DNA from: Lentisphaerae bacterium GWF2_50_93
GTDB lineage: Bacteria; Verrucomicrobiota; Lentisphaeria; Victivallales; GWF2-50-93
Reading direction: 5' to 3'
Length of the DNA: 64,000 nt
NCBI GenBank assembly: GCA_001804815.1
Contig: MHBI01000100.1
Location: 1-64,000 of the forward strand
A program made the position numbers and the translations under genes. Within the stretch, counting starts at the first letter, position 1, and every line of letters starts with the position of its first letter. The notes beneath the pieces were generated by a model, which worked only from the letters and a program-made list of their open reading frames with translations, made no database searches and was not told where the DNA came from. Below, piece by piece: positions 17,747 through 49,350 of this stretch.

Positions 17747-17830
17747 ATGAACTATAGCGACAACAGCATTGCCAGCAGGCAGTTATCTGCATGCCAATCC
17801 GTCCTTTTATTTTCATTCCCGGAATCCTGA
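17747..17830 (+). CDS. Possible 27-residue leader peptide
   Basis: An ATG preceded by CAGGGGGGATTC opens a 27-codon frame (MNYSDNSIASRQLSACQSVL and onward) that ends 89 bases before the kinase start, under the promoter at 17672. The good ribosome site is the only support. It could be a short upstream frame affecting kinase translation. Confidence 0.3.
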   Translation: MNYSDNSIASRQLSACQSVLLFSFPES

Positions 17831-17919
17831 CTTTCAAATTCGATGTTATCTGTTTTGATATAGGATTATTTTGCCGGTGCGTCTACGCCGGTTGTCAAGG
17901 GTGGAAAGGGGAACTTCCT

Positions 17920-20900
17920 GTGAAGAAGAAGAAAAAAGAGTCTTTGCCGCAAGCTCAAGCCGGCGATGAGGCATACCAGATGCTTTTTGAGAATGCCGGC
18001 GACCCCATATTCATCCACGATGAGGACGGAATTCTTGCCGTAAACGCAAAAGCCTGTGAACTTCTTGGATACACTAAAGATGAACTCCTGTCGATGGAAC
18101 CTTCAGACGTCGACACCTATGAAGAGAAGATTAATATGCCTGGGCGCATAGCCAGGCTCAAGTCACGTGGAACTTTGAATTTCGAGACGGTTCATCTGAA
18201 AAAGGATGGGACGACTGTTTCTGTTGATGTCACTGCAAAGCTGGTAATCTGGTATGGAAAACCTGCCGTAATGAGCATATGCCGTGACATGACCCGGAGG
18301 AAGCATGCCGAAAACATACTGCTTACTGCGGCTTTGGAATGGCAGACTACTTTTGATTCCGTAAGGGATGTAATATTCCTGTTGGACTCCGAGGCCAGGA
18401 TCCTTCGCTGCAACAAAGCTGCTTCAGACATGTTTGGAAGTCCGGGAAAGGACTTGCTTGGAAGGAAATGCTGTGAAGTTGTCCATGGGAAGGCTGAGCC
18501 AATTCCCGAATGTCCAACGGACAGGATGAAAAAAACCAAGAGAAGGGAATTATTGGTAATAAAATCCAAGGACCGCTGGCTCGAAATAACGGCTGATCCG
18601 ATCCTTGACGAGGAAGGGGAAATTTCCGGTGTAGTCCACATCGTTTCAGACATTACCGAACTCAAGAAGAAGGACGAGGATCTACTATCATCCTATGGTA
18701 GGTTCAAGCAGATTCTGGAAGGTGCTTCCGAAGGTATTCTGATTGCGGACATAAAGACCAAGATGATCAAATATTCCAATCCGTCCATATGCAGGATGCT
18801 GGGATATTCTTCTGATGAGTTGGCTGATATGTCCATTCAGAAGATTCATCCGGCGGCTGACTGGGCCCATGCGCTGTCTGAATTTGAGGCCCAGTCCCGA
18901 GGAGATAAGACTTTAGCTCCTGAGATCCCGTGCCTGTGCAAGAATGGAAGGGTAATTTACGCTGATATAAACACAACTAGGATTACCCTTGATGGAAATG
19001 AATGCAATGTCGGTTTTTTCCGGGATGTCACTGAACGTAAAAAGTCAGTTCAGGAACTGAGTGACAGCAGGATGCTGTACCAGGATATCCTTGACAACCA
19101 GGCGGCAGGCATATACCGGATTTGCGTGAAAAAGTCAGAATCGTGGTCTTCTACCGATGATCCTCCCTACTCATATGAATTCATGAACGAACGGTATTGC
19201 GAACTTACAGGTGCGACTCGCGAAGAACATATGGCCGATCCAACCCTTACCATGAAGCTGGTACATCCTGATGACTGGAAAAGATGGATTGAAGACAATG
19301 AGGTGTCTCATACGAGGCTAAAACCCTTCTTCTGGGATGGACGCCTGATAGTAAGAGGCAAGGTCGTATGGGTACATTATGAATCACGTCCAAGGGAACT
19401 TCCAAACGGGGACAGGGTCTGGACCGGAATTCTTCTGGATATTTCCGAACGAATGAAGGCAGAAGAAGGCCTGAACCAGTCATTGTCGCTGCTTAATGCC
19501 ACTCTTGAATCTACTACTGACGGAATCCTGGTTGTTGACAACAACGGGAAATTCAGTTATTCGAACAGCAAATTTGCCCAGATGTGGTCCATCCCACAAG
19601 AAATAATGTCCAGTAGAAATGATGATATGGCGCTCAACCATGTTTTACAGCAGCTGAAGAATCCGGAATTGTTCCTGAACAAGGTCAAATATCTTTATAT
19701 TCATCCTGAAGAAGACAGTTTTGATGTAATCGAGTTCAAGGACGGCAGGATATTCGAGCGCTATTCGCAGCCTCAACGAATTGCCGGCAAACCAGTTGGC
19801 CGTGTATGGAACTTCCGTGATGTTACAATGGCCCGGAAGGCGGCCGAATCCCTTGAAAGAGGCGAGAGAAAATACAGGTCCCTGGTTGAAACGACGAATA
19901 CAGGATATGTGGTCATTGACACCGAGGGAAGGGTGCTCGACGCAAATCAGGAATATGTGAGGCTGGCGGGCAAGGACGAATTAAAGCAAATCGTTGGAAG
20001 GAAAGTGACTGAATGGACTGCCGATTATGAAAAGAAGAAAAACGCCGAGGCTGTAAAGAAATGCGCCATTGACGGACATGTAAGGAACTTAGAGATAGAT
20101 TATGTCGATTCATCCGGGAAAATAACACCAATTGAGATAAATGGAACCGTCGTAAATTCTGATGAAGGACCGAGGATACTCACCCTTTGCCGTGACATAA
20201 CAGAACGCCGCAAGGCCATGGAAGCTCTGCAGAAGAGCGAAACCATTATCCAGAATATCAGCAACAACCTGGCTTCCGGGATGATCTATCAGGTCGTTGT
20301 CATGAAAGACGGCACACGCAGGATAACCTATCTGAGCCATAATGTCGAGCGTTTTTATGGCATAACTCCACAGGAAGGCATTGCAGATGCCAGCCTGATA
20401 TATGGAAGGATACATCCTGAAGACAGGGACAAATTAATCCACGACGAAGAAGAGGCGATCCATAATATGTCCGTCTTCAGGAGCGAGGTCAGGATGATCA
20501 ATCCTGATGGGGGAATCCGGTGGTCGTCTTTTGCTTCCAGTCCCCATCTTTTACCGGATGGGACGACCTGCTGGGATGGAATAGAATTCGACATCACCGG
20601 GCTCAAGAAGGCTGAAGAGGAGCTGAGAAGGCACCGGGATCATCTGGAGGAGATGGTTGAAGAACGTGCCACCGCGCTCGTAGAAAGCGAGAAGAATTAT
20701 CGTGAGCTCGTCGAGAACACCAACAGTATAATCCTCAGGATGGATAACGTAGGGAAGGTTACTTTCTTCAATGAATTTGCCCAGTCATTCTTCGGTTTCA
20801 GCGGTGAGGAAATCATCGGCAGGAACGTTGTAGGCACGATTGTTCCTGTAAAAGACACGAACGGGACAGATCTGGAGGACATGATTTTGGAGATTGGAAA

Positions 20901-23403
20901 TCATCCTGAGAAATTCAGGAACAACATGAACGAGAACATGCGCAAGAGCGGCGAACGCGTATGGATAGCCTGGACCAACAAGCCGATATTCGACGGCAAT
21001 GGTAAAATTGTCGAAGTCATGTGCATCGGAAACGACATTACCGAGAGGGTGAAAACCGAAAAGGAGCTGGACAAGTATCGGAACAGATTGGAAGAACTCG
21101 TTGAGGAGCGTACTGAAGAACTCAGGAATAGCGAGGATCGCTTCCAGAAGATCGTAGAGCAGTCCCCCATGTCAATGGCGATAGTCGGAATGGATGGCAC
21201 AATTGAATACATCAACAGGAAGGCCGTTGAAACATTCGGATATCTACATGAGGACATTCCGAATATGGACCGATGGTATGTCCAGGCATACCCGGACGAG
21301 AAATACCGCAAGGCGGTGATATCGACATGGATGGGGCTTGTTGAAAAAGGAATAGTTGGAAACCACGAGATTGAAGGCAGGGAATACCGGGTGACCTGCA
21401 AGAATGGAATTGTAAAGACTATGTTCATATTCGGCGTTCCTGTTTCAAACAAGGTGTTCGTAATGTTCGACGACATCAGCGAACGCAAGCGGGTGGAAAC
21501 CGAACTCATCAGGAGCGAAGAAAAATATCGGCAACTCCATGAAAGCATGATTGACGCGTTTGTCCTGACCGACATGGAAGGAAGAATCATGGAAACAAAC
21601 CGTTCGTACCAGGATATGCTCGGATATTCGGAGAAGGAGTTGCACAGCATTGCCTACTCGGATCTGACCCCCTCAAAATGGCATGACATGGAGATGAATA
21701 TTGTCAACGAACAGATTCTTAAGAAAGGATATTCCGATGTCTATGAAAAGGAATACCGCCGCAAGGATGGCGCGGTCATTCCGGTAGAATTGCGCACCTT
21801 CCTCATCCTTGATGAAAACAAATCTCCAAGCGCAATGTGGGCAATTGTCCGCAATCTTACCGAGCGAAAGAAGACTGAGCAGGCGCTGAGGGACAGCGAG
21901 GAAAGGTTCCGTACGATATTCGAAAAGGGACCGATCGGAATGGCCACAGTTGATCGAAACAATAATTTTATCAAGGTCAATCCGACATTTTCCCGGATGC
22001 TTGGATATTCGGAACAGGAACTTGGCCTACTTTCATATAAGGATGTCACCCATCCGGAGCATATTGAAGCGGATATAAGGAATGTCGAAGATCTCTCCAA
22101 AGGAAGAATCAACGTATATCAGACAGAAAAGAGATATGTCCGCAAGGACAAGTCGTTGATGTGGGGTTCTCTGACACTTTCCGCGATAAATGATCATAAC
22201 GGGAAATTCCTCTATTTCCTGGCGATGCTGGTAGATATAACCGAACGGAAGATGATTGAGGAAAGGCTGCGCCAGTCCGAAAAAATGGAGGCTATTGGAC
22301 AGCTTGCGGGAGGAATCGCGCACGACTTCAACAACCAGCTGATGGGGATAATGGGCTATGCGGAGATGTTGTATGACCGTCTTGACGATGAATCTCTGAG
22401 GAAGGATGCCGAAAACATTTTAAGAATTTCCAGAAGATCATCTGATCTGACAAAGGAAATGCTGGCATTTGCCAGGAAAGGCAAGTATCAGGCCGTACCT
22501 GTCAACATTCATAAGCTCATCGAGGAAGTTATCAGCCTCCTTTCCCACAGCATAGACAAGAGAATTGAGATCAAAAGGATTCTAAAGGCAAGTCCGGCAA
22601 CCATAATGGGAGATCCTACTCAGCTGCAAGGCGCCATCCTCAATCTGGCGATCAACGCCCGTGACGCAATGCCAAAGGGAGGAGAACTTGTATTCACCAC
22701 TGAAACGATGGAAATGGACGATTCTTATTTCAGCGATGTCAAAAAAATATTATCCAACCGCTACCTGAAGATATGCATAATTGATAATGGGACAGGCATG
22801 GACAGCGAGACAATCAAGCATATCTTCGAACCCTTCTTCACCACCAAGGAGCCGGGAAAAGGGACGGGCATGGGTCTGGCTTCCGTCTATGGCACCGTAA
22901 ACACACATAATGGAATCATCAATGTTGAGAGCACCCTTGGAAAAGGCTCGGTTTTTTCAATTTTCTTCCCTCTTTACGAGGAGGAAATAGAATCAGAGGA
23001 ATCAAAGCCGGAACCTGATGTCATCAGGAAGGAGGCGAACATACTCCTGGTCGACGACGAGGAAATCGTAAGAGACATGGTTGCGAAGATGCTGCGTTCA
23101 TTTGGTCACAAGGTCGTGATATGCAAAGATGGACTGGAGGCGCTGGAATACTATAAGCAGTCCTGGAGCAAGATCGATCTCGTCGTACTTGACATGATGA
23201 TGCCGAGGATGAATGGCAGGGATTCATTCATAGGCATGCGGACCGTGAATCCGGATATCAGAGCTGTTTTAATGTCCGGATACAGCATCGATGAGGAAGT
23301 CCAGAGCCTGCTTGACGCCGGGATGAAGGGATTCATACAGAAGCCTTTCAACACCAAGGAATTGAACAAGGAGGTCGAGAGCGCCTTGAAGGGTGGAAAA
23401 TAG
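17920..23403 (+). CDS. Giant soluble hybrid histidine kinase with about 11 PAS domains
   Basis: The protein has about 1827 residues. I count 11 successive PAS units, each opening with a helix such as [13 protein letters not shown] or [16 protein letters not shown]; many end with the linker T/SERK. At about 1454 comes the HisKA motif [17 protein letters not shown] (His phosphosite). The HATPase follows with [21 protein letters not shown] and [15 protein letters not shown]-terminal receiver starts at about 1706 ([20 protein letters not shown]). No membrane segment is seen, so it is a cytosolic sensor. I chose GTG 17920, behind AAGGGGAA; an ATG at 17791 has no ribosome site. Signals are unknown. 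Confidence 0.9.
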
Positions 23404-36691: not shown

Positions 36692-36712
36692 AAAAATCTC
36701 CTTCGGATATTT
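36685..36712 (-). promoter_or_regulatory. Shared translation leader, copy 1 (FG-GAP gene)
   Basis: The 28 bases ending at the start codon region contain TATCCGAAGGAGATTTTT and are identical to the leader of the GH4 gene. The leader overlaps the GH4 stop codon. Confidence 0.75.
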
Positions 36713-38150
36713 ATAATTTTAATTTCATTTCGGCAAGTTTCCCGAATCTGTGGACAATTGCAAGTGCCGGATCAACAGGGACATCCACTGGCTTCACATT
36801 CTTTGGAATTTTGACTGCGGGCTTCGGCGTGATCTTCCTGCCTTTGAACTGGGGCAGCCATTCGCGCTGGGCTTCGAGCATTTCCGAAGCCATATCCCTG
36901 GCTTCGGCCAGAGTACAGACAGCACTCGCAAGTGGATCCATTGCAACGGCATGCATTATGTTTTCAGGATCGCCTGTCAATGAGGCTTCAACTGTCAACT
37001 CCTGTACAAGCACATTGGTCATATTAAGGGCCGCGCACTGCATTGGAAGATTTCCAACTTTTACTGGATGGATTCCCTGTTTGTCGACGAACACAGGAAC
37101 TTCAACGCAGCATCCTTCCGGAAGATTTGTTATATAGCCTTCATTCCGGACATTTCCGTTCAATTTGAATGAAACACCAGTTGTTTTAGCCTCGAGGATA
37201 TAGCTGCAGTATTCCACACTGCGTTTTGCGAGTTTCGCATCTTCAAACTGCAGATAGTCTATCTTTCCAAACTTTTCAGCGAGATACGCACAGTATTTAT
37301 AATATGCTCCGCTTTCCCCTCCGAACGCAGGCTGGTCGCAATACAGATCAAGGGCCTTCTTGTTCTTCCTGAACCAAGGGATGTATTCAGAAAGATGTCC
37401 GGTGCTTTCCGTCATGAAATATCCGAAATGACGGGCAACCTCGCACCTGACCTTCTCGTTCACATAATATTCCGGCTTCTCGATGTTCTTCATGATTAGA
37501 GGATTCAGATCCTTCCCGTTCCTGGCATCATTCAGCTTGAGAAACCATGCCATGTGGTTTATCCCTGCACACAGGTAGTCGATCTTCTCCTTGGGAACAT
37601 CGGCATAACGACTGAGCAGGTCAAGCGTCGTCTGTACGCCGTGGCAAAGGCCTATGGACTGTATTTCCGGAACCGCTTTTCCAAGGGCCAGACAGTTCGC
37701 CGCCATCGGATTGCTGTAGTTTAAAAGAAGAGCTTTAGGACAGAGCCTTTTCATGTCTTTGGCGATGTCGGCAAGCACCGGTATCGTGCGAAGTCCGCGG
37801 AAAATACCGCCTGCACCGAGGGAATCTCCGATGCACTGGTCGACACCGTACTTCATCGGGACTTCGTAGTCGATTCTGAAGGCATCAAGACCGCCGACCT
37901 GGATCATTACGATTACAAAATCCGCACCTTCAAGGGCTTTTTCCCTGTCGAGAGTAGAACAGATCCTTGTCGGAAGCTTATTCTCCTTCACGGCTTTCCT
38001 GAGGAACTTCTCCATCCTGTCTATCTTGGGTTTTGTCCTGCTCATCAGCCAGATCTCGCTGTCCTTCAAGGCCGGAGTGGACATGATGTCCATGGACAAC
38101 GTCTTGCAGAATATCTGGCTTCCGGCTCCTATCATCGCAATCTTAGGCAT
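36711..38150 (-). CDS. GH4 family glycosidase (alpha-galactosidase/glucuronidase type)
   Basis: The 479-residue NAD- and metal-dependent family is recognised by the Rossmann start IAMIGAGSQIF, then VIVMIQVGGLDAFRIDYE, DSLGAGGIFRGLRTIP, LLNYSNPMAANCLAL, the metal motif IGLCHGVQ and CAGINHMAWFLKL. GH4 subgroups differ at the residue after CH; CHG has been linked to alpha-glucuronidases and CHS to alpha-galactosidases, so a uronide substrate is possible but unproven. It is cytoplasmic. The start follows the leader with AAGGAGATTTTT. It is the middle gene of a Gfo/Idh/MocA - GH4 - FG-GAP operon. Confidence 0.85.
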   Translation of the reverse strand: MPKIAMIGAGSQIFCKTLSMDIMSTPALKDSEIWLMSRTKPKIDRMEKFLRKAVKENKLPTRICSTLDREKALEGADFVIVMIQVGGLDAFRIDYEVPMKYGVDQCIGDSLGAGGIFRGLRTIPVLADIAKDMKRLCPKALLLNYSNPMAANCLALGKAVPEIQSIGLCHGVQTTLDLLSRYADVPKEKIDYLCAGINHMAWFLKLNDARNGKDLNPLIMKNIEKPEYYVNEKVRCEVARHFGYFMTESTGHLSEYIPWFRKNKKALDLYCDQPAFGGESGAYYKYCAYLAEKFGKIDYLQFEDAKLAKRSVEYCSYILEAKTTGVSFKLNGNVRNEGYITNLPEGCCVEVPVFVDKQGIHPVKVGNLPMQCAALNMTNVLVQELTVEASLTGDPENIMHAVAMDPLASAVCTLAEARDMASEMLEAQREWLPQFKGRKITPKPAVKIPKNVKPVDVPVDPALAIVHRFGKLAEMKLKL

Positions 38151-38171
38151 AAAAATCTCCTTCGGATATTT
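38144..38171 (-). promoter_or_regulatory. Shared translation leader, copy 2 (GH4 gene)
   Basis: This segment is identical over 28 bases to 36685-36712, including CCGAAGGAGATTTTT and the first codons ATGCCTA. It lies in the 36-base gap between the oxidoreductase and GH4 genes. Confidence 0.75.
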
Positions 38172-38186
38172 TTAATAAATAAATGT

Positions 38187-39332
38187 TCAGATGCCTTTTG
38201 TCAATTTCAGATATTCCCTTGCGCGTTCCATGTCCTCGAGCGCCTCTTCAGCAGTGCACATGGGTTTGATCTCTCCACGGATTGCGGAAAGGAAGTTCAT
38301 CGCCTGCTGGCGCATTGCATGTATCCAAGGGAGGGTTGGCACTATCGCCTGGGCGGTTGCCCCTTTGGAAGGTTCGGTTTCGGCGAAATCAGTAAATTCG
38401 GTGTTTTCAAACCATTGGGTCGAAGAAGGTGCCTTATTCTGCTTAATCTCTGCATCGCGGAAGAGTTCAACTGAGCCGGGCCGGTTGATGGCAAGAGGCG
38501 CAGGCGTTTCAAGACGCACATAACCGCGTTCAAAGCATGCCTGTGATGTCTCATCCCATTCCAATCTTCCATTATATGGCGTCATCTCTATCACTCCGTC
38601 AACTCCGCTGCGGCTCCTTACCGCAAGCATCATTTCCGAACCGGAGACGAATTTCACCTCGTAGGACTCTCCAAGCAGGTGGCGCATGAGGTTCACGTGA
38701 TGGATGTAATAGTTCACAAAGCTAATATAGTGCCTGTACTGTTCCTCGTTCATGTCCTTTGCAGGATCATCATGCTTCAGGTTCGGCCTGGGTTCGTTGG
38801 TGGGGATCAGATCAAAAAATCCGTTGTTCATCCAGTCGTTACCGGCCAGCGTAATCCTCACATATTTCAATTTTCCAAGCTCGCCGGTATTCTTCAGCCT
38901 GTCGATTTCAGCCTTGGCGTACATGGTCGCCGGATCACTGCGCTTGTGGTATCCTATCATCATCCATGTCCCGCTCTTCCTGACAGCATCAACAATCCTG
39001 CGTCCGACTTCGAGGGAGCCTGCGATCGGTTTTTCCGTGAATACCGGGATTCCCGCCTTCAGCAAATCGGGGACAAGCTGTCCATGCCGGGTAAATGGCT
39101 GGGATGCCACTATGCCATCAAGTTTTTCCTTTGAGATCATTTCGCTGCAGTCGCTGTAGACTTTTCCGATGCCATACCGTGCCGCGACTTTCGCAACCAT
39201 GTCCTTCTGGATCTCCGCCAAGGCTACGACTTCGCAGTCTGCGAGAGTCGCATAATTCCTGAGATGTGCGCACTGGCCCATTCCTCCAACCCCGGCAAAT
39301 CCTATCCTCACTTTCCTCTTTTCCTTGCCCAT
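38187..39332 (-). CDS. Gfo/Idh/MocA-family oxidoreductase
   Basis: The 381-residue dehydrogenase has an N-terminal NAD(P) fold with IGFAGVGGMGQCAHLRN, then the family motif VFTEKPIAGSLEVG with its catalytic-type Lys, and GTWMMIGYHKRSDPA. The C-terminal domain is the usual open sheet. Members oxidise or reduce sugars and inositols; here it probably acts with the GH4 enzyme on the released sugar. AGGAGAAATAAG precedes the start. It is divergent from the AraC gene at 39465. Confidence 0.88.
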   Translation of the reverse strand: MGKEKRKVRIGFAGVGGMGQCAHLRNYATLADCEVVALAEIQKDMVAKVAARYGIGKVYSDCSEMISKEKLDGIVASQPFTRHGQLVPDLLKAGIPVFTEKPIAGSLEVGRRIVDAVRKSGTWMMIGYHKRSDPATMYAKAEIDRLKNTGELGKLKYVRITLAGNDWMNNGFFDLIPTNEPRPNLKHDDPAKDMNEEQYRHYISFVNYYIHHVNLMRHLLGESYEVKFVSGSEMMLAVRSRSGVDGVIEMTPYNGRLEWDETSQACFERGYVRLETPAPLAINRPGSVELFRDAEIKQNKAPSSTQWFENTEFTDFAETEPSKGATAQAIVPTLPWIHAMRQQAMNFLSAIRGEIKPMCTAEEALEDMERAREYLKLTKGI

Positions 39333-39345
39333 CTTATTTCTCCTT

Positions 39346-39467
39346 TTACAATAATTGCTTTTTGAAACTGATTGAATTTATGCTTTATTAGTGTCTAAAT
39401 CAACCTCTATGCAATGACTGATATTGCTATTATATTTACAATAATTGCTATATTGAAAGAATTTATG
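39346..39467. repeat. Direct repeat in divergent promoter region
   Basis: TTTACAATAATTGCT is followed in both copies by a TTGAAA-like word and then GAATTTATG: copy 1 at 39346-39383, copy 2 at 39436-39467. Copy 2 includes the AraC start codon. It may be a duplicated promoter segment or a regulator binding site. Confidence 0.55.
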
Positions 39468-40199
39468 GAAAGATTTGAATTCAAGCACGTCGGATTGAAC
39501 TCCCCTAAAAAAGCCTGGCATATAGGAAGGCATTCCCATGACTACCACGAAATCGTCGTTGTAATGTGGTCGAAGGAAAAAGTTTCAATAAACAAGAATT
39601 TCATAGAAGCATCAGAGGGGGATGTCCTTGTTTTCAGGCCGGGAGTCGTGCATGAGGAATGGAGCGGCGACAATCCGCCTCTTGAAACTGTATTCTTCAC
39701 TTTTTCCGCAGATGATTTCCCGGCGGAGATCCCATTCAAGATCACAGACTCCAAGGGGAGGCTGCGAATTATCGCGACATGGATGTTGAGTGAAAGCAGG
39801 ATTCTTAATCCAACAGAATCGTCCAGCCTCATGAACAGTTATCTGGACGCGTTCCTTGCTGAAATGACAAGGATAGCCAGGCATCATGATTCCCCCATGG
39901 TGGACAACATCCGGAGCATGATAATAAGGGATCCGGCAAAGGACCATTCCCTGGAATCACTTGCGAAATCCGCAGGTCTCAGCAAGTTCCATTTCCTCAG
40001 GAAATACAGGCAGCTCGCAGGAGTTTCACCGGCGGACGACGTCAGGCGCATAAGGCTGAGCTTTGCAAAGGATCTGCTCATCTCCACCGACGAACCTCTC
40101 AAGAATGTATCTGAAAAATCCGGGCTCAGCAATGAAACTACATTGTGCCGCCTATTCCAGAAATACTACCGGAAGTCCCCGGGACAGTTCAGGAAATAA
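39465..40199 (+). CDS. AraC-family regulator
   Basis: In this 244-residue protein, the N-terminal cupin has AWHIGRHSHDYHEIVVVMW and SEGDVLVFRPGVVHEEW, and the C-terminal AraC HTH pair has LESLAKSAGLSKFHFLRKYR and NVSEKSGLSNETTLCRLFQK. It probably responds to a sugar and controls the divergent oxidoreductase-GH4 operon, the convergent GH42 gene, or both. ATG 39465 is preferred; upstream in-frame codons give a hydrophobic, unlike-protein extension. Confidence 0.87.
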   Translation: MERFEFKHVGLNSPKKAWHIGRHSHDYHEIVVVMWSKEKVSINKNFIEASEGDVLVFRPGVVHEEWSGDNPPLETVFFTFSADDFPAEIPFKITDSKGRLRIIATWMLSESRILNPTESSSLMNSYLDAFLAEMTRIARHHDSPMVDNIRSMIIRDPAKDHSLESLAKSAGLSKFHFLRKYRQLAGVSPADDVRRIRLSFAKDLLISTDEPLKNVSEKSGLSNETTLCRLFQKYYRKSPGQFRK

Positions 40200-40204
40200 C
40201 GGAA

Positions 40205-42250
40205 CTATATTCTTTCCAGGACCGCGCTTCCATCAGCTTCTAGCTTCAGCACGTCCTTCACATTCTTCCCTGAAAGCATGTCTATGAATTTCTCGTTCCC
40301 GAGATCAACCTTCTGCTTCCTGTTCTTGAAATTAAAAACGAAAATGAATTCCCTCTTGCCGTCGGTCCTCATCTGGGCGGTGACACCTTCCGGAAGATTT
40401 TTAGGAAGTATCCTTTTAACCTTGGACTCCTTGATTACCGCAGAAGTCAATTCCATCAGAAATTCATCCTCAGTCCTGGCGGCTACGTAATAGACCCTGC
40501 CCTTTCCAAACTTATTGACTGTCACGGCGGGCTCGCCAGCATAGAAGTCCTTCCCGTAGACGGCAATCACCTTTGCACCTTCAGGATGGATCCTCTCGCA
40601 ATAGTCATGCGCCTTGAACTTTCCCTTCAGTCCGAGATGATTCCCCTTCACAGCCTCGATCTGCTGCTTGTCGTCCGGCGTGATACCGTCGATCTCCTCG
40701 TTCCAGATTCCGAACACTTTGCGAAGTCCGCAGCCCGGCCAGCCGCCAGTGAAACACCTGTCGTTTTCGTCGACTATGCCGGTGAGGTAGGACGCGATCA
40801 CGGTTCCGCCTTTTGAAACAAATTTCCCGAGTCTCTCGGCAACTCCCGGCTTGATCATGAACAGCATCGGAAGGACAAGAACCTTGTACTTATCAAAGGA
40901 GCATGTGCTTTCAATCACATCTACGGAAACGCCCGAATTCCAGAAAGGCCTGTAGAAAGCCTGGAATGTTTCAATATACTTCTTGTTCGCATTCGTAGGA
41001 CCCTGCGAGTAGTCGAGCGCCCAGCGCGAATCCCAGTCCTGCATGACCGCCACTTCCGCCGGGACTGTAGTTCCAATCACAGCGTCGATCTTCCTGTGTA
41101 TCTTCCCGATCTCAGCGACATCCTTGAAGACACGTGTTTTTTCGTGACCGACATGGTCAATTACGGCTCCATGGAACTTCTCGCACGACCCCATGCCCTT
41201 GCGGTACTGGAAATACATGGTGCCGTCGGCGCCATGCGCGATCGTCTGGAGCATCTCCCTCTTGTGTACGCCCGGCCTCTTGAGCCGTGTGTACTGCTGC
41301 CAGTTAGTGGCGCTCGGGCAGGACTCCATCAGCATGAACGGCTTTCCGCCCTTCATCGAACGATGCATGTCATGGACCATCGATATATATGAACCCATTC
41401 CTGAATTGTCATCGGGATTGTACCATGACGGATATGCGTCGTCCGCTATCACATCGCAGACTTCGGCGACGCGCCAGTAGTCGAGTCCGTGGAAGAACCC
41501 CATCATGTTGGTCGTGACCGGCGCATTAGGCGTCAGCTTCTTGAGCGGCGCTATCTCGTGTTTCATGAAATCGCAGCACTGCCAAGTTACGAAACGGCTC
41601 CAGTCGAGTTTGAGGGCGTCTACACAGCCGTCGCGGGGATCTATCTGGTTCCAGGCGGTGTAGTTATGGCTCCAGAAATATGTCCACCAGCGCTCGTTCA
41701 GGTTGTCGAGGGTCTTGTATTTTTTCTCCAGCCAGCCGTACCAGGATTTAAGGCAGAGGTCGCACATGCATTCGCCGTTGTATTCATTTGAGATGTGCCA
41801 GGCACCGAGAGCAGGATGTTTCTTGTAGCGTTCGGCTAGCTTCGTGTTTATGATATTCACTTTTTCACGGTAAATCGGCGACGTCCAGCAGTGGTTGTGC
41901 CTGTCATGGAAAGGTTCGCGGTGCCCATCCCTCTTCACACGCCTGACTTCCGGATATTTCAACGCCATCCATGCGGGGCGCGCGCCGCTCGGAGTTGCGA
42001 GAACAGCATTATAACCCTTCTTCGCCAGACGGTCCATGATCATGTCGAGCCAGTCGAAATTAAACTTGCCTTCCACGGGCTCGTAGCTTGTCCAGGCGAA
42101 TATGCCGATTGAAAACGTGTTGCATCCGGAAAGGTCCATCAGGCGGAAATCCTCATCAATCGCTTCCGGATGTTTCAGCCATTGGTCTGGATTGTAGTCT
42201 CCACCATGCAGGAAATGCGGGAACTTCGATATGATCGGAGCATATTTCAT
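40205..42250 (-). CDS. Beta-galactosidase-like GH42 enzyme
   Basis: The 681-residue protein has the GH42 order of a catalytic barrel, a trimer domain and a small beta domain. It opens LHGGDYNPDQWLKHPEAIDE. The acid/base Glu is in GAWHISNEYNGECMC and the nucleophile Glu in GGKPFMLMESCPSATNW. The CMCDLC cysteines near the first Glu match the zinc cluster seen in some GH42 enzymes. There is no signal peptide, so it acts in the cytoplasm on short galactosides or related sugars. GGGAGATTTACAG precedes the ATG. It is convergent with the AraC gene, 5 bases apart. Confidence 0.9.
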   Translation of the reverse strand: MKYAPIISKFPHFLHGGDYNPDQWLKHPEAIDEDFRLMDLSGCNTFSIGIFAWTSYEPVEGKFNFDWLDMIMDRLAKKGYNAVLATPSGARPAWMALKYPEVRRVKRDGHREPFHDRHNHCWTSPIYREKVNIINTKLAERYKKHPALGAWHISNEYNGECMCDLCLKSWYGWLEKKYKTLDNLNERWWTYFWSHNYTAWNQIDPRDGCVDALKLDWSRFVTWQCCDFMKHEIAPLKKLTPNAPVTTNMMGFFHGLDYWRVAEVCDVIADDAYPSWYNPDDNSGMGSYISMVHDMHRSMKGGKPFMLMESCPSATNWQQYTRLKRPGVHKREMLQTIAHGADGTMYFQYRKGMGSCEKFHGAVIDHVGHEKTRVFKDVAEIGKIHRKIDAVIGTTVPAEVAVMQDWDSRWALDYSQGPTNANKKYIETFQAFYRPFWNSGVSVDVIESTCSFDKYKVLVLPMLFMIKPGVAERLGKFVSKGGTVIASYLTGIVDENDRCFTGGWPGCGLRKVFGIWNEEIDGITPDDKQQIEAVKGNHLGLKGKFKAHDYCERIHPEGAKVIAVYGKDFYAGEPAVTVNKFGKGRVYYVAARTEDEFLMELTSAVIKESKVKRILPKNLPEGVTAQMRTDGKREFIFVFNFKNRKQKVDLGNEKFIDMLSGKNVKDVLKLEADGSAVLERI

Positions 42251-42314: not shown

Positions 42315-44540
42315 TTATTTCGGAAGGGCGGCTGCTTCCTTCCTTGCAATTTCATCGGCAAGATCCCCAATCAATTTCTGTACTCTTTCAAGATAAAGGT
42401 TTCCAAGATGTCCACCTACATTGTAGAAAATACAGCGGTCTCCCATTGTGTCCTTCAGCCAGCGCCGTTCAGAACTGCTTTCCAGAAAATCATTGGAAGA
42501 ATGAATTACGCATACATTCTTGTCATTACGCAGGAAGTCCTCTATCGCATACAAACTTGATTTCCTATTGAGTTCTTCTATCGTCATCTGGCGGTTCTCA
42601 ATCTCCGAATGGTATTTCAAGATATACTTCTTCGTAAATTCGGCAAACGTCATCTGATCTATTTCGTGGTAGAAATCAGTCCTGTTTCCCCATGTGCACT
42701 TGTTTTTGAAATAATTCATATTCCCATTATTCCTGACAATGCACAGGAGCACATCCTCCAAGGATACCTTGAAGTTGAAGTAAACCAGCGATTTGGCTTC
42801 CGTCTCAGTGAACGGAAGGGGCTTAAGTTCCCCGGGAACATTGTTTTCCTGAACTATTCCAGGTTCCTCATATGGCTTATATGATTTCCTTTTAATCCCA
42901 AGATATTTCATCAAGGCAACAGATCCGCGTTCAAAAACGCGTTCCTGCCCCCATTTCTTCCATGCAAGTCCCAATCTATCGCTTTCTTCCATGGTATATT
43001 CGAGGTTGACAGGCGGATTTATCGCAACATATCTGGAAATCTTGAGAATAGGATTCTTCTTTTCCATGTCTCCGATGAACAAGGTGAGCATTCCTCCGTT
43101 GGACCAGCCTATTAGGAGTTTTTCAGGAAAACTCAACCCCTTGTTCTCCTCCAGGTCCTTAAATACTGCCGCGATTGCATTTCTTACATCCGAAGCATCT
43201 GCAGGAGTATACCCTGGAACAGCTACAGAAGCGGCCGTCTCCATGAACTCCCAGTTCAAGACATTGCTCATAGCGACAACAGTGAATCCGCGGTTGAAAA
43301 GTATCTCGGAAATAGCCGAATTATCATTGCTGGTGTAATGGGAGCCGGCACCGGGCAGCACGATGGCAATAGGCGCATCCTTCTGTTTCTGGTACCATAT
43401 TTTATAAGGCATTCTCGATTTGCCCTCAACCACTTTCACAGTGCGAACTGAACCCTGGTTGAAAAAATCGGTGTTCCACAGGGATACGTCAACCCACATG
43501 CTCTCATGGTCGTTCTGGACCTGTACCATCCCGATCCGCATCGTGTCGATATAAGGCCCCTGTGACTTGAACCCGCGTATTACAATTTCCTTCAGGAGAG
43601 GATCCGGTTCCTGCAGCGGAGGCTCCTTTTCATCCTCCAAGAGCTTCTTCTGGTATTCAGCCATTACTTCACGGCGGTCATAGTCGTTGATCTTGAAGTA
43701 GCGCTGCATCGCATAAAACCTTTTAAGCAGCTCATACGGATCATTGTTTGCACTAAGGAAGACATCCATCTCACGATAGCCGGTAGTGCTTTGATTCAAC
43801 ATCGTAAAACCCTGCCCCCCCCATATATACGTCTTGGGATCGAAAGCGTAGTCGAAAATCTCGCCAATTCCGTCACGTAAATTAGTGGGACCTATGAATG
43901 GAATATGGAGGACTACTCCCGGACCTATGCCCCACCAGGCAAAAGCCTGTCCGAAATCCTCGTCCTGGACTTCCAGGTCGAACCAGTCCCTGGCAGGATC
44001 ATAGAAACCAGCTATGCCAAGCGTGATATTTATAAGGAAACACGATGTGTCTATTCCAGCATACTTGAACTTGGCCTGTATAAGGGAGCTTACAGTCCTT
44101 CTTGGGAAGGCTACATTTTCCGTAAAGCGGTTGAAACATTCTATCCCGTGCCTGGGGATAAGGGATCCCCAGAAAATGACAATGGGCTGGACAACATATC
44201 TTAAGGCGTATTTGTCTATGGTGAACATTGAACGGTTGAATCCTTCAATCGGATCCCGTCCGCCAAATTCCTCAGTCAAGTCTGGAGAATTGGATTCCAG
44301 ATCAATGGGAGCCTTATTCACATCGACAGCATTTTCCACACCGTCTTTTCCAATCGTCGCAGGGAGCGTTGGAACATCGGCAGCAACTGTACTGGTTCCT
44401 TTTGCCTCATCTTTATTTCCGGTGGAGGAACATCCAGTATAAAGGAAAATGGACGACAGCAGCAACCCGTTCAGGAAAAACCTGAAAAATAGCCTTGCCC
44501 ACAAAACCTCATCCATTGGAAGCTGAGGATTTCTTTTCAT
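42315..44540 (-). CDS. MlaA-like lipoprotein fused to alpha/beta-hydrolase
   Basis: The protein has about 741 residues. The signal LLLSSIFLYTGCSSTG has a lipobox-like Cys. Residues about 90-290 match MlaA (VacJ): DPIEGFNRSMFTIDKYALRY, YDPARDWFDLEVQDEDFGQA and GPGVVLHIPFIGPTNLRDGI. Residues about 385-740 form an alpha/beta-hydrolase with LPGAGSHYTS, the nucleophile elbow LLIGWSNGGML, an Asp in VIHSSNDFL and a His in VGGHLGN. MlaA moves phospholipids out of the outer membrane, so the hydrolase might act on lipids or on acyl-sugars. The second ATG is chosen because GGAG is too close to the first (44546). No other Mla genes are nearby. Confidence 0.82.
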   Translation of the reverse strand: MKRNPQLPMDEVLWARLFFRFFLNGLLLSSIFLYTGCSSTGNKDEAKGTSTVAADVPTLPATIGKDGVENAVDVNKAPIDLESNSPDLTEEFGGRDPIEGFNRSMFTIDKYALRYVVQPIVIFWGSLIPRHGIECFNRFTENVAFPRRTVSSLIQAKFKYAGIDTSCFLINITLGIAGFYDPARDWFDLEVQDEDFGQAFAWWGIGPGVVLHIPFIGPTNLRDGIGEIFDYAFDPKTYIWGGQGFTMLNQSTTGYREMDVFLSANNDPYELLKRFYAMQRYFKINDYDRREVMAEYQKKLLEDEKEPPLQEPDPLLKEIVIRGFKSQGPYIDTMRIGMVQVQNDHESMWVDVSLWNTDFFNQGSVRTVKVVEGKSRMPYKIWYQKQKDAPIAIVLPGAGSHYTSNDNSAISEILFNRGFTVVAMSNVLNWEFMETAASVAVPGYTPADASDVRNAIAAVFKDLEENKGLSFPEKLLIGWSNGGMLTLFIGDMEKKNPILKISRYVAINPPVNLEYTMEESDRLGLAWKKWGQERVFERGSVALMKYLGIKRKSYKPYEEPGIVQENNVPGELKPLPFTETEAKSLVYFNFKVSLEDVLLCIVRNNGNMNYFKNKCTWGNRTDFYHEIDQMTFAEFTKKYILKYHSEIENRQMTIEELNRKSSLYAIEDFLRNDKNVCVIHSSNDFLESSSERRWLKDTMGDRCIFYNVGGHLGNLYLERVQKLIGDLADEIARKEAAALPK

Positions 44541-44712
44541 TTCCATTTCTCCAGTTACAAACTTGAAATATATGAATAAAACCTCAAGAATTCAACATGA
44601 AAAACGCCTAAACTTCCGGCTAGTTGAACCTATTCTGAGATTGTAATGTGAAAATCCATATAAAAATGAAGTATTACTAAGAAAAATACCGATAATGATA
44701 AGAAAAACTCAA

Positions 44713-46428: not shown

Positions 46429-46938
46429 CTACATCGTTATCTCTTCCAGGATGGTTCTGGCTTCCCTGGGGAGTTTTTCCAGGTCGCTGATCTTGTAGCG
46501 GTTCTTCTCGATGTCGGTGATCATGATCACGCCGGCGTTGTTGATGCTCATGTTATCCCTTGGATTGAAGAGATACATGATCTTCCTGCCGCGGTCTGTT
46601 TCAATTTCCCATTCGTCGAAGCCGTGCCCGCGCTTCGACCGTTTCGATTTCAGTTTCCTTATGTCCAGTATCTCAGGAACGAAATAGCGTTCGTCGATCG
46701 CGTGGCGGACAAGCTGCTTCTGACCCTCGTCAAATCCATCCAGACCCCTGATTACCCCGATCTCCTCGATCTCCTGCTCCAACTCCTTGATGACGGATAT
46801 GAACTTCTCATGCAGAGTCAGGGGGAACAGAGTGACGCAATGCAGGTGCTCGTGGATCGTCCCGTCCTTGAGCTTACAGTTGAGCATACCTGTCGCACTC
46901 TTCTCAAACCTGATGTCGTCTTTTGTCAGTATCTTCAT
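46429..46938 (-). CDS. DUF1854 protein
   Basis: The 169-residue protein has the DUF1854 phrases LHCVTLFPLTLHEKFISVI, LVRHAIDERYFVPEILDI, the basic KLKSKRSKRGHG, and FNPRDNMSINNAGVIMITD. Family proteins are usually encoded beside an ABC exporter like the one 87 bases upstream on the same strand, and may act with it. It is soluble and has no signal peptide. It is the last gene of the likely exporter operon. Confidence 0.82.
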   Translation of the reverse strand: MKILTKDDIRFEKSATGMLNCKLKDGTIHEHLHCVTLFPLTLHEKFISVIKELEQEIEEIGVIRGLDGFDEGQKQLVRHAIDERYFVPEILDIRKLKSKRSKRGHGFDEWEIETDRGRKIMYLFNPRDNMSINNAGVIMITDIEKNRYKISDLEKLPREARTILEEITM

Positions 46939-47025
46939 AATTTTTTGCCCTGCAGAAAATTAACTTTCCTTGTTTATATGAAAATCAACTTTTATCTCTT
47001 TCGTGTCATTCTTGTATTTCGTAGT

Positions 47026-49350
47026 TCAATATTCAGCTTTCAATCCTTCATCCCCGTTGTCCTGTCCGCCTCCGGGCTTGTCGCCAAAACTCTTCGGTTT
47101 TTTCCCGTTCTCCTCCTGCTTGGGCATGTCAAACGCCATGATCTGCGCCAGTTCGCTCTGGATCTGCACGAGTTCGTAGAAAATCCCTTTTTTGGCCAAA
47201 AGCTCCTGATGCGTGCCAATCTCTCCTATTTCACCGTTCTTCATGACAACAAGCCGGTCGCACTTGCGCAATGTCGAGAGACGATGGGCGATGGCAATGG
47301 TTGTGCGTCCCTTGGTGAGCCTTTCAAGCGCTTCCTGTATCTTCTTTTCAGTCTGTGTATCGACAGATGAAGTAGCCTCGTCGAGGATGAGTATCTTCGG
47401 GTCGCGCAGTATCGCCCTGGCTATGGAAATCCTCTGTTTCTCACCGCCGGAAAGGCTGTTTCCTCTCTCTCCGACCTCGGTATCGTAGCCATCCGGTTTC
47501 TTCAGTATGAACTCATGTGCGTTGGCGGCGATCGAAGCCCTGATCACCTCTTCCCTTGTTGCACCGGGCTTCGTGTAGCTGATGTTCTCATATATGGTTC
47601 CGTTGAACAGGAAAGTATCCTGCAGGACTATCCCAATATTCTTGCGCAGATCATTCTGCTTGATATTCCGCAAATCCACTCCGTCCAGCAGTATCTCCCC
47701 GCTGCTGGCATCATAGAGACGGCAGATAATGTTTATCATAGTGCTTTTGCCTGCACCGCTCTTGCCGACAAGTCCTATCATTTCATGCTTATGTATGGTC
47801 AGGGATACGTTCTTGATCACAGGCTTGAACTTGTCATAACCGAAAGTGACGTTCCGGAACTCGATCTCACCCTCGAGATCGGGAAGCCCTACGGCATCAG
47901 GCGACTCCTTTATCATGGGCTCGGTGTCAATCACATCGAACACCCTTTCCGCGGCGCTGACCGCATTCGTTATGAGATCAAGCATGCGGGTCAGCATGAA
48001 AACAGGACGGTAGAACATCATGAGATATCCTGAATAGGCGACTACCGAACCGAGAGTCATCTTCCCGCCGAAAACAAGATATCCTCCGACGAGCCATACG
48101 ATCACCATGCCTGACATTATCAGGAGATGGAATACCGGATGGAAAAAGCTCCAGCGCTTTGCAAGCTCGATTCCGGCATCGCGGTATCTCAGGCTGTACT
48201 TCTGGAACTTGTCTGTCTCCATCTGCTCCTGTCCGAATGCCTTGACAACTCGTATCCCCGACAAGGAATCTGCGACAATCGCACTGAGTTTTGATCGGCG
48301 ATAGAAGAAACGGTGCATGAAAATCCAGAATTTCGGTATGACCAGCTTTACAAATACTACTATCGCAAGGATTGGGATCAGCACGAACAATGTCAGTTCC
48401 CAGCTCAGTATAAAAAGGAATATGCCGATTCCAAAGAACATAATGATGGATTCGACGGTTATCGGGATGAAGTCCACCAGCAGGCGCTGCATCTCCTGCG
48501 TGTCCTGGTTGACCCTCGCCAGGAGCGCACCTGTCTGATGCTTGTCAAAGAATCCCAGGGACAGTTCCTGGAGCTTCTCGTAGATGGTCTGTCTGACGTC
48601 TGCTACTGTTTTGTAGCCGAGGATGCCCGAATACCGCTCCTGAATTCCACCGAGGAAAAGCTGGATGGCGTATGCCGCAAAAAGGAAAATCGATGCCGGC
48701 AGCAACCAGTGGGCGTTGACAAACTGCCCTGTCACAGGATCGGACTTGAGGATGACATCAATGAACAGCTTGCTCATGTATGGAGTAATCAGCCCGAAAC
48801 CCGTACCTGCCAGCATGGTCAGCATTATCATGACCATGGTCCCCTTGTAAGCCATGGCGAAATGCGACATTCGCAGAAGCGTCCCCCTGCGGTCGGTGCA
48901 TCTGGGGCACTTGTTAAGTTCCTCAGGAATTGGCTTCTTGCATGAAGCGCATACTTTCCCTGCCAATGCTGACTTGTCTGAAACCGGTTCATTATTGGCA
49001 AGTCTTGAGATGTCTTCAGCCGCGTGCGCAAAGAAGGGATTTAGTACTTGGGAGAATGAAATAATCTTGAATGGACTGCCTGTCTTAGGTTCAACCAGGA
49101 ATGACATTATTCCTACATGGGGGGAAATCCTGGCTTTCTTGAGGGTAAAAAGGGGAATGTCATGGAAGGGAATGGCATCCCCTTTACCGCTGATGCCATA
49201 TACAAGTACGGTCTTATTTGTGACTACAAGCCATTCGGCTCCATAATTCCGGTGTCCCGTAATGTCCGAAGACAAGGATATTATTATTTCCTCGTCCTGA
49301 TGATCACGTTGAAGTATGTCCCTCACCCTGTCCGGTATCATGCTTTCCAT
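47026..49350 (-). CDS. ABC exporter half-transporter with PH-like and zinc-ribbon N-terminus
   Basis: The protein has 774 residues. The N-terminal 130 residues look PH-like (AEWLVVTNKTVLVYGISGKG), then a zinc ribbon KVCASCKKPIPEELNKCPRC. A six-helix type-I exporter domain follows, then the ATPase with GLVGKSGAGKST (Walker A), NSLSGGEKQRISIARAIL (signature) and ILILDEATSSVDTQTEKK (Walker B). The substrate is unknown. It lies between a zinc-ribbon membrane protein (upstream) and DUF1854 (downstream), a combination that suggests a dedicated export system. Confidence 0.9.
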   Translation of the reverse strand: MESMIPDRVRDILQRDHQDEEIIISLSSDITGHRNYGAEWLVVTNKTVLVYGISGKGDAIPFHDIPLFTLKKARISPHVGIMSFLVEPKTGSPFKIISFSQVLNPFFAHAAEDISRLANNEPVSDKSALAGKVCASCKKPIPEELNKCPRCTDRRGTLLRMSHFAMAYKGTMVMIMLTMLAGTGFGLITPYMSKLFIDVILKSDPVTGQFVNAHWLLPASIFLFAAYAIQLFLGGIQERYSGILGYKTVADVRQTIYEKLQELSLGFFDKHQTGALLARVNQDTQEMQRLLVDFIPITVESIIMFFGIGIFLFILSWELTLFVLIPILAIVVFVKLVIPKFWIFMHRFFYRRSKLSAIVADSLSGIRVVKAFGQEQMETDKFQKYSLRYRDAGIELAKRWSFFHPVFHLLIMSGMVIVWLVGGYLVFGGKMTLGSVVAYSGYLMMFYRPVFMLTRMLDLITNAVSAAERVFDVIDTEPMIKESPDAVGLPDLEGEIEFRNVTFGYDKFKPVIKNVSLTIHKHEMIGLVGKSGAGKSTMINIICRLYDASSGEILLDGVDLRNIKQNDLRKNIGIVLQDTFLFNGTIYENISYTKPGATREEVIRASIAANAHEFILKKPDGYDTEVGERGNSLSGGEKQRISIARAILRDPKILILDEATSSVDTQTEKKIQEALERLTKGRTTIAIAHRLSTLRKCDRLVVMKNGEIGEIGTHQELLAKKGIFYELVQIQSELAQIMAFDMPKQEENGKKPKSFGDKPGGGQDNGDEGLKAEY

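Follow-up and report, generated by a model that had tools for sequence, protein, structure and literature searches.

The closest described counterparts of the protein reported here are MlaY and MlaZ of Pseudomonas aeruginosa (PA3238/PA3239), reportedly described by Guest et al. 2023 (PNAS e2302546120). MlaY is described as an alpha/beta-hydrolase-domain lipase whose active site consists of Ser187, His415, and Asp388, it is reported to act as a phospholipase, and MlaZ belongs to the MlaA family (PMC11977310). It is proposed that MlaZ hands mislocalized phospholipids to MlaY for destruction (PMC12569750), such that extraction would be followed by cleavage (PMC11131202, PMC11977310, PMC12569750). 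In Escherichia coli, the docking site for MlaC on MlaA is formed by the C-terminal helices and the acidic tail (PMC10719372), and MlaA, MlaB, and MlaC have been reported mostly from Proteobacteria (PMC10665443). The present locus bears on how diderm bacteria outside the Proteobacteria maintain the asymmetry of their outer membrane.

The window analyzed here, 64,000 nucleotides of contig MHBI01000100.1 from Lentisphaerae bacterium GWF2_50_93, contains an open reading frame (positions 42315–44546, minus strand) that encodes a 743-residue protein in which an MlaA domain is followed by an alpha/beta-hydrolase, with fused homologues in many genomes. A preliminary description of this DNA had claimed that one frame joins the two parts, and its coordinates, which came without a strand, were right to 6 bases. 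In the ORF reading of the window, the frame starts with ATG and has zero internal stops. A GGAG sequence lies 2 bases 5′ of the first ATG and 8 bases 5′ of the third codon, which is also ATG, so that translation may start at Met1 or at Met3. Residues 1–39 (44430–44546, minus strand) constitute a predicted signal peptide that ends in a near-consensus lipobox, LYTG-Cys39. The preliminary description called the MlaA part a lipoprotein; Cys39 follows LYTG, and close relatives have LVAGC and AVAGC at this position, but the Tyr at −3 departs from the strict consensus. Of 29 fused proteins from the order, 25 carry a lipobox-like motif, versus 0 of 11 separate MlaA proteins, and fusion and lipid anchoring therefore seem to accompany each other.

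Among 60 relatives, fused frames of ~670–830 residues were found in genomes of the same genus and in several families of the order. Beyond the order, the loci read are fused as well, both in further families of its class and in a second class; a contig scan for relatives returned one only, the Lentisphaerae MAG GWF2_49_21. In sister families of the order, MlaA and the hydrolase are encoded by separate adjacent genes that overlap or nearly abut, most of them with their own export signals. Such pairs are what one would look for if the fusion were an assembly or sequencing artefact in which the stop codon between two genes had been lost. The preliminary description had raised this alternative, and the separate orthologues that it envisaged do exist; the artefact that they were to betray is nevertheless close to inconceivable, as the frame is fused in the same genus and in many other independent genomes, the fused members form a supported clade, and fusions in other classes have a different linker length. 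Because independent assemblies contain this fusion too, an assembly join is ruled out.

A tree of MlaA domains places the fused proteins of the order, except for one long-branched sequence, in a clade of 30 (99% support) beside the separate pairs, and the fused members from outside the order form a clade of 16 of their own (98% support). The hydrolase tree has the same outline, both trees being unrooted products of a quick search with weak deep branches. The distance from the RD motif of MlaA to the oxyanion glycine of the hydrolase is ~183 residues in the order versus ~132 residues outside it (four proteins only), and two separate fusion events are possible. One genome, G003, carries two copies of the fusion (L035, 9184–11484 and 15367–17590); one copy lies ~4 kb from a gene for a 507-residue multi-MCE (PqiB-like) protein and ~8 kb from MlaD and MlaE, with an opposite-strand gene between.

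The MlaA domain of the fusion (residues 97–283; 43698–44258, minus strand) is matched by PF04333 with 151.8 bits against a curated cut-off of 25 (E 2.4e-44), and by the genome search with an E value of 6e-45. An NCBIfam search of the fusion returned MlaA only, and the solved structures closest to it in sequence are MlaA chains from 8i8r, 5nuo, and 5nuq. The full-length AlphaFold model has a pLDDT of 83 and a pTM of 0.83, with confidence dropping nowhere except over residues 1–82 and 566–572; Foldseek matches it to 5nuo_B (TM 0.82 of the target, rmsd 2.7), with 5nuq a further fold match to the MlaA domain, and to alpha/beta-hydrolases as well. Domain search and structure prediction thus agree with the MlaA identity given in the preliminary description. 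In domain, fold, and signal peptide, the N-terminal half resembles canonical MlaA (VacJ), and in the fusions the MlaA domain is conserved and not shrunk to a lipoprotein tail. A profile search of the GWF2_50_93 genome found no other MlaA, making the fusion its sole MlaA. A linker (residues 284–315; 43602–43697, minus strand) follows the last helices of MlaA and spans the gap that separates the Pfam match from that of the hydrolase profile; helices near it are predicted at residues 292–304 and 331–340 of the AlphaFold model.

The MlaY-type alpha/beta-hydrolase domain (42345–43595, minus strand) is identified by profile, by blastp to MlaY, by its model, and by fold matches in the PDB. Hydrolase profile A1, in which the fusion sequence itself is included, matches with an E value of 2.9e-165, and no curated Pfam family scores above its cut-off in the C-terminal half, the best being Abhydrolase_3 (E 0.05). 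Modeled alone, the hydrolase reaches a pLDDT of 93.2 and a pTM of 0.93. Foldseek returns generic alpha/beta-hydrolases, among them brefeldin A esterase and MekB, indicating no specific substrate, and a PDB profile search yields nothing beyond weak and incomplete hits to esterases and lipases. The complete Ser-Asp-His set noted in the preliminary description is confirmed: the nucleophile Ser482 (G-W-S-N-G; codon 43101–43103), the acid Asp686 (codon 42489–42491), and the base His713 (GGH.G; codon 42408–42410), all on the minus strand, are invariant in 40/40 homologues and in 60/60 of a wider set, MlaY and the Fusobacterium homologue being counted apart. The mean column identity of the 40-homologue alignment is 35%, and the invariance of the triad despite this divergence is an argument for catalytic activity.

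MlaY–MlaZ pairs of P. aeruginosa and Fusobacterium were retrieved from plasmid records by tblastn. The P. aeruginosa gene (L152, 5743–7104) is MlaY, as Ser187, Asp388, and His415 are at the reported positions and a VacJ/MlaA-family gene follows directly. For most of its extent, the hydrolase of the fusion aligns with MlaY at 24% identity (E 1e-30 by blastp, 6e-72 by profile), and its Ser482, Asp686, and His713 align with Ser187, Asp388, and His415. In Fusobacterium vincentii, the genes for MlaY and MlaZ overlap (L153, 5833–7873); this pair is likewise homologous, and its catalytic acid is likely to be Glu rather than Asp.

In the pairs and in the fusion, an MlaA-family outer-membrane protein accompanies a homologous alpha/beta-hydrolase with the same triad, and for the P. 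aeruginosa pair extraction and cleavage have been proposed. The pairs comprise two genes in the order Y–Z in Pseudomonas and Fusobacterium, whereas the fusion is one chain in the order Z–Y. The P. aeruginosa pair coexists with a full MlaABCDEF set, unlike the fusion in a genome without MlaC, and P. aeruginosa MlaZ lacks the lipobox-like motif of the fusion. In the MlaA tree, whose deep branches are weak, MlaZ groups with proteobacterial MlaA and not with the MlaA domain of the fusion; the pairing of MlaA with the hydrolase may have several origins, unless the tree is too weak. As its MlaA part is not closer to MlaZ, the fusion is by sequence an MlaYZ-like variant rather than a strict orthologue. 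The remark in the preliminary description that no characterized example was known holds for the fused form, since we found no description of a covalent MlaA–hydrolase fusion in the literature searched; it does not hold for the two-protein system, which has been characterized in P. aeruginosa. What is new relative to MlaY/MlaZ is the covalent fusion, the constant linkage to MlaA, the near-perfect exclusion of MlaC, and the persistence of the fusion in one genome without MlaE and MlaD and of the gene pair in a Fusobacterium record without MlaC and MlaE.

Across 289 genomes of the phylum, the hydrolase profile has matches in 83, and MlaA is present in all 83; in the loci examined, the two are fused, overlapping, or adjacent. 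This constancy bears on the reading that the hydrolase acts on another ester, such as an O-antigen acetyl group, an acylated sugar, or a scavenged lipid, and that MlaA serves mainly as an outer-membrane anchor. The resemblance of the fold to generic esterases and the sugar-use genes in the window are in keeping with it, and anchoring alone would suffice to account for fusion to a lipoprotein. However, the homology of the hydrolase is to MlaY, a reported phospholipase, the partner is always an MlaA with a conserved domain, and the adjacent sugar genes are not conserved at other loci. We therefore consider another ester quite improbable as the substrate.

MlaA occurs without the hydrolase in 31 genomes of the phylum. 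MlaC, detected with the single Pfam profile PF05494, is found in 1 of the 83 hydrolase-positive genomes versus 29 of these 31 (Fisher p 1e-23, uncorrected for ancestry; the co-occurrence counts are not phylogenetically independent). In the one MlaC-bearing exception among hydrolase-positive genomes (G194), MlaC is next to a second, canonical MlaA gene, and the fusion lies a megabase away. Two MlaA-only genomes lack MlaC: in G284 the MlaA gene lies at the end of a contig and may be an unseen fusion, and G287 is a real exception to the pattern. At 14 of 19 stand-alone MlaA loci, a member of one gene cluster lies ~0.7 kb away at the position of MlaC, versus 0 of 58 hydrolase-linked loci. The pattern switches state several times in the phylum: in G018 within the same order, in families f9 and f15 versus f10, f11, and f13 within the same class, and in f16, which has both states. 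The profile search found no PF05494 match in the GWF2_50_93 genome.

Two MlaE genes and MlaD-domain genes are present in the GWF2_50_93 genome, on contigs other than that of the fusion, and some use of the pump in this organism is therefore possible. Since MlaE and MlaD are also present in 30 of 31 genomes searched, and since a long MlaD able to span the envelope is known where MlaA and MlaC are missing (PMC10665443), the MlaA half could still feed an MlaD/MlaEF pump, either by way of a different carrier or via an elongated MlaD, and the hydrolase would have only the side task of trimming damaged or lyso lipids. Several observations make this unlikely: the fusion is kept in G010 (97% complete), which has zero MlaE and MlaD matches; the Fusobacterium pair is kept in a 2.1-Mb F. 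vincentii record with zero matches to MlaC and MlaE; MlaE and MlaD also occur in relatives without any MlaA (G006, G007); and the neighborhood comparison found no MlaD, MlaE, or MlaC gene recurring beside hydrolase-linked loci. Together with the exclusion of MlaC, the retention of the fusion in G010 and of the pair in Fusobacterium supports the independence of the fusion system from the return route.

The outer-membrane phospholipase PldA (OMPLA) would be expected to have the same role, the destruction of outer-leaflet phospholipids, but its fold is a beta-barrel (PF02253) unrelated to the alpha/beta-hydrolase fold of the fusion. PF02253 is found in 24 of the 289 genomes and in 0 of the 83 hydrolase-positive ones, with no match in the GWF2_50_93 genome; PldA is mostly confined to one family, and so ancestry may explain its absence from hydrolase-positive genomes.

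Extraction coupled to cleavage, as put forward in the preliminary description, is the best reading of these sequences, given that the hydrolase is a homologue of MlaY and that MlaZ, with which MlaY works, is itself an MlaA-family protein. We consider it likely that the protein is a single-chain MlaZ–MlaY that extracts and cleaves mislocalized phospholipid rather than extracting and returning it, without MlaC and without the need of MlaFED. The analysis shows the fusion, the identities of its domains, the invariant triad, the homology to MlaY, the linkage of the two parts, and the absence of MlaC. The chain would be exported and probably lipid-anchored at Cys39, the MlaA ring would seat it in the outer membrane and collect glycerophospholipids misplaced in the outer leaflet, and the MlaA channel would convey the lipid to the periplasmic side. 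Whereas the C terminus of canonical MlaA is the tail that recruits MlaC, the fusion chain runs from the C-terminal MlaA helices on into the hydrolase; because the hydrolase is joined at the helices where MlaC docks, we place it at the station of MlaC, and we infer that the tethered serine hydrolase takes the lipid directly where E. coli MlaA recruits MlaC. Its putative activity would be to cut the acyl ester bonds of the received lipid, the products would exit into the periplasm, and asymmetry would be kept by cleavage and not by return, with MlaC and the MlaFED pump dispensable. Several points run counter to this reading: the identity to MlaY is low, the MlaA domain is apart from MlaZ in the tree, the gene order is reversed relative to Pseudomonas and Fusobacterium, MlaE and MlaD are present in the GWF2_50_93 genome, and the co-occurrence counts lack phylogenetic independence.

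A broader form of the proposal, which we find plausible but would not quite expect to hold, is that in a large part of the phylum one protein replaces MlaC and the ATP-driven pump, the pull on lipids in the MlaA channel coming from hydrolysis itself, and asymmetry would then be kept without ATP or a shuttle. A conserved one-protein system that excludes MlaC presents destruction versus return as a testable alternative. The natural fusion supports the direct hand-over proposed for MlaZ and MlaY, and it provides one polypeptide in which that step can be studied by structural and biochemical means.

No conserved gene neighborhood was found around the fusion in the loci compared, and comparison of hydrolase-linked loci shows that sugar-use genes beside it are not conserved elsewhere. 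In the window, a GH42 beta-galactosidase gene lies 64 bases downstream of the fusion, in a sugar-use cluster (36711–42250) that also encodes a GH4 glycosidase, a Gfo/Idh oxidoreductase, and an AraC regulator. Upstream on the same strand is a gene for a serine beta-lactamase/esterase family protein (PF00144; 44713–46137, minus strand), and a diacylglycerol-kinase family lipid kinase (PF00781; 50067–51104, minus strand) is encoded ~5.5 kb from the fusion. Positions 46429–49350 (minus strand) encode a DUF1854 protein (PF08909) adjoining an ABC transporter with a weakly PH-domain-like N-terminal stretch and a zinc ribbon. The window also contains a very long open frame of 1870 residues at 17791–23403 (plus strand).
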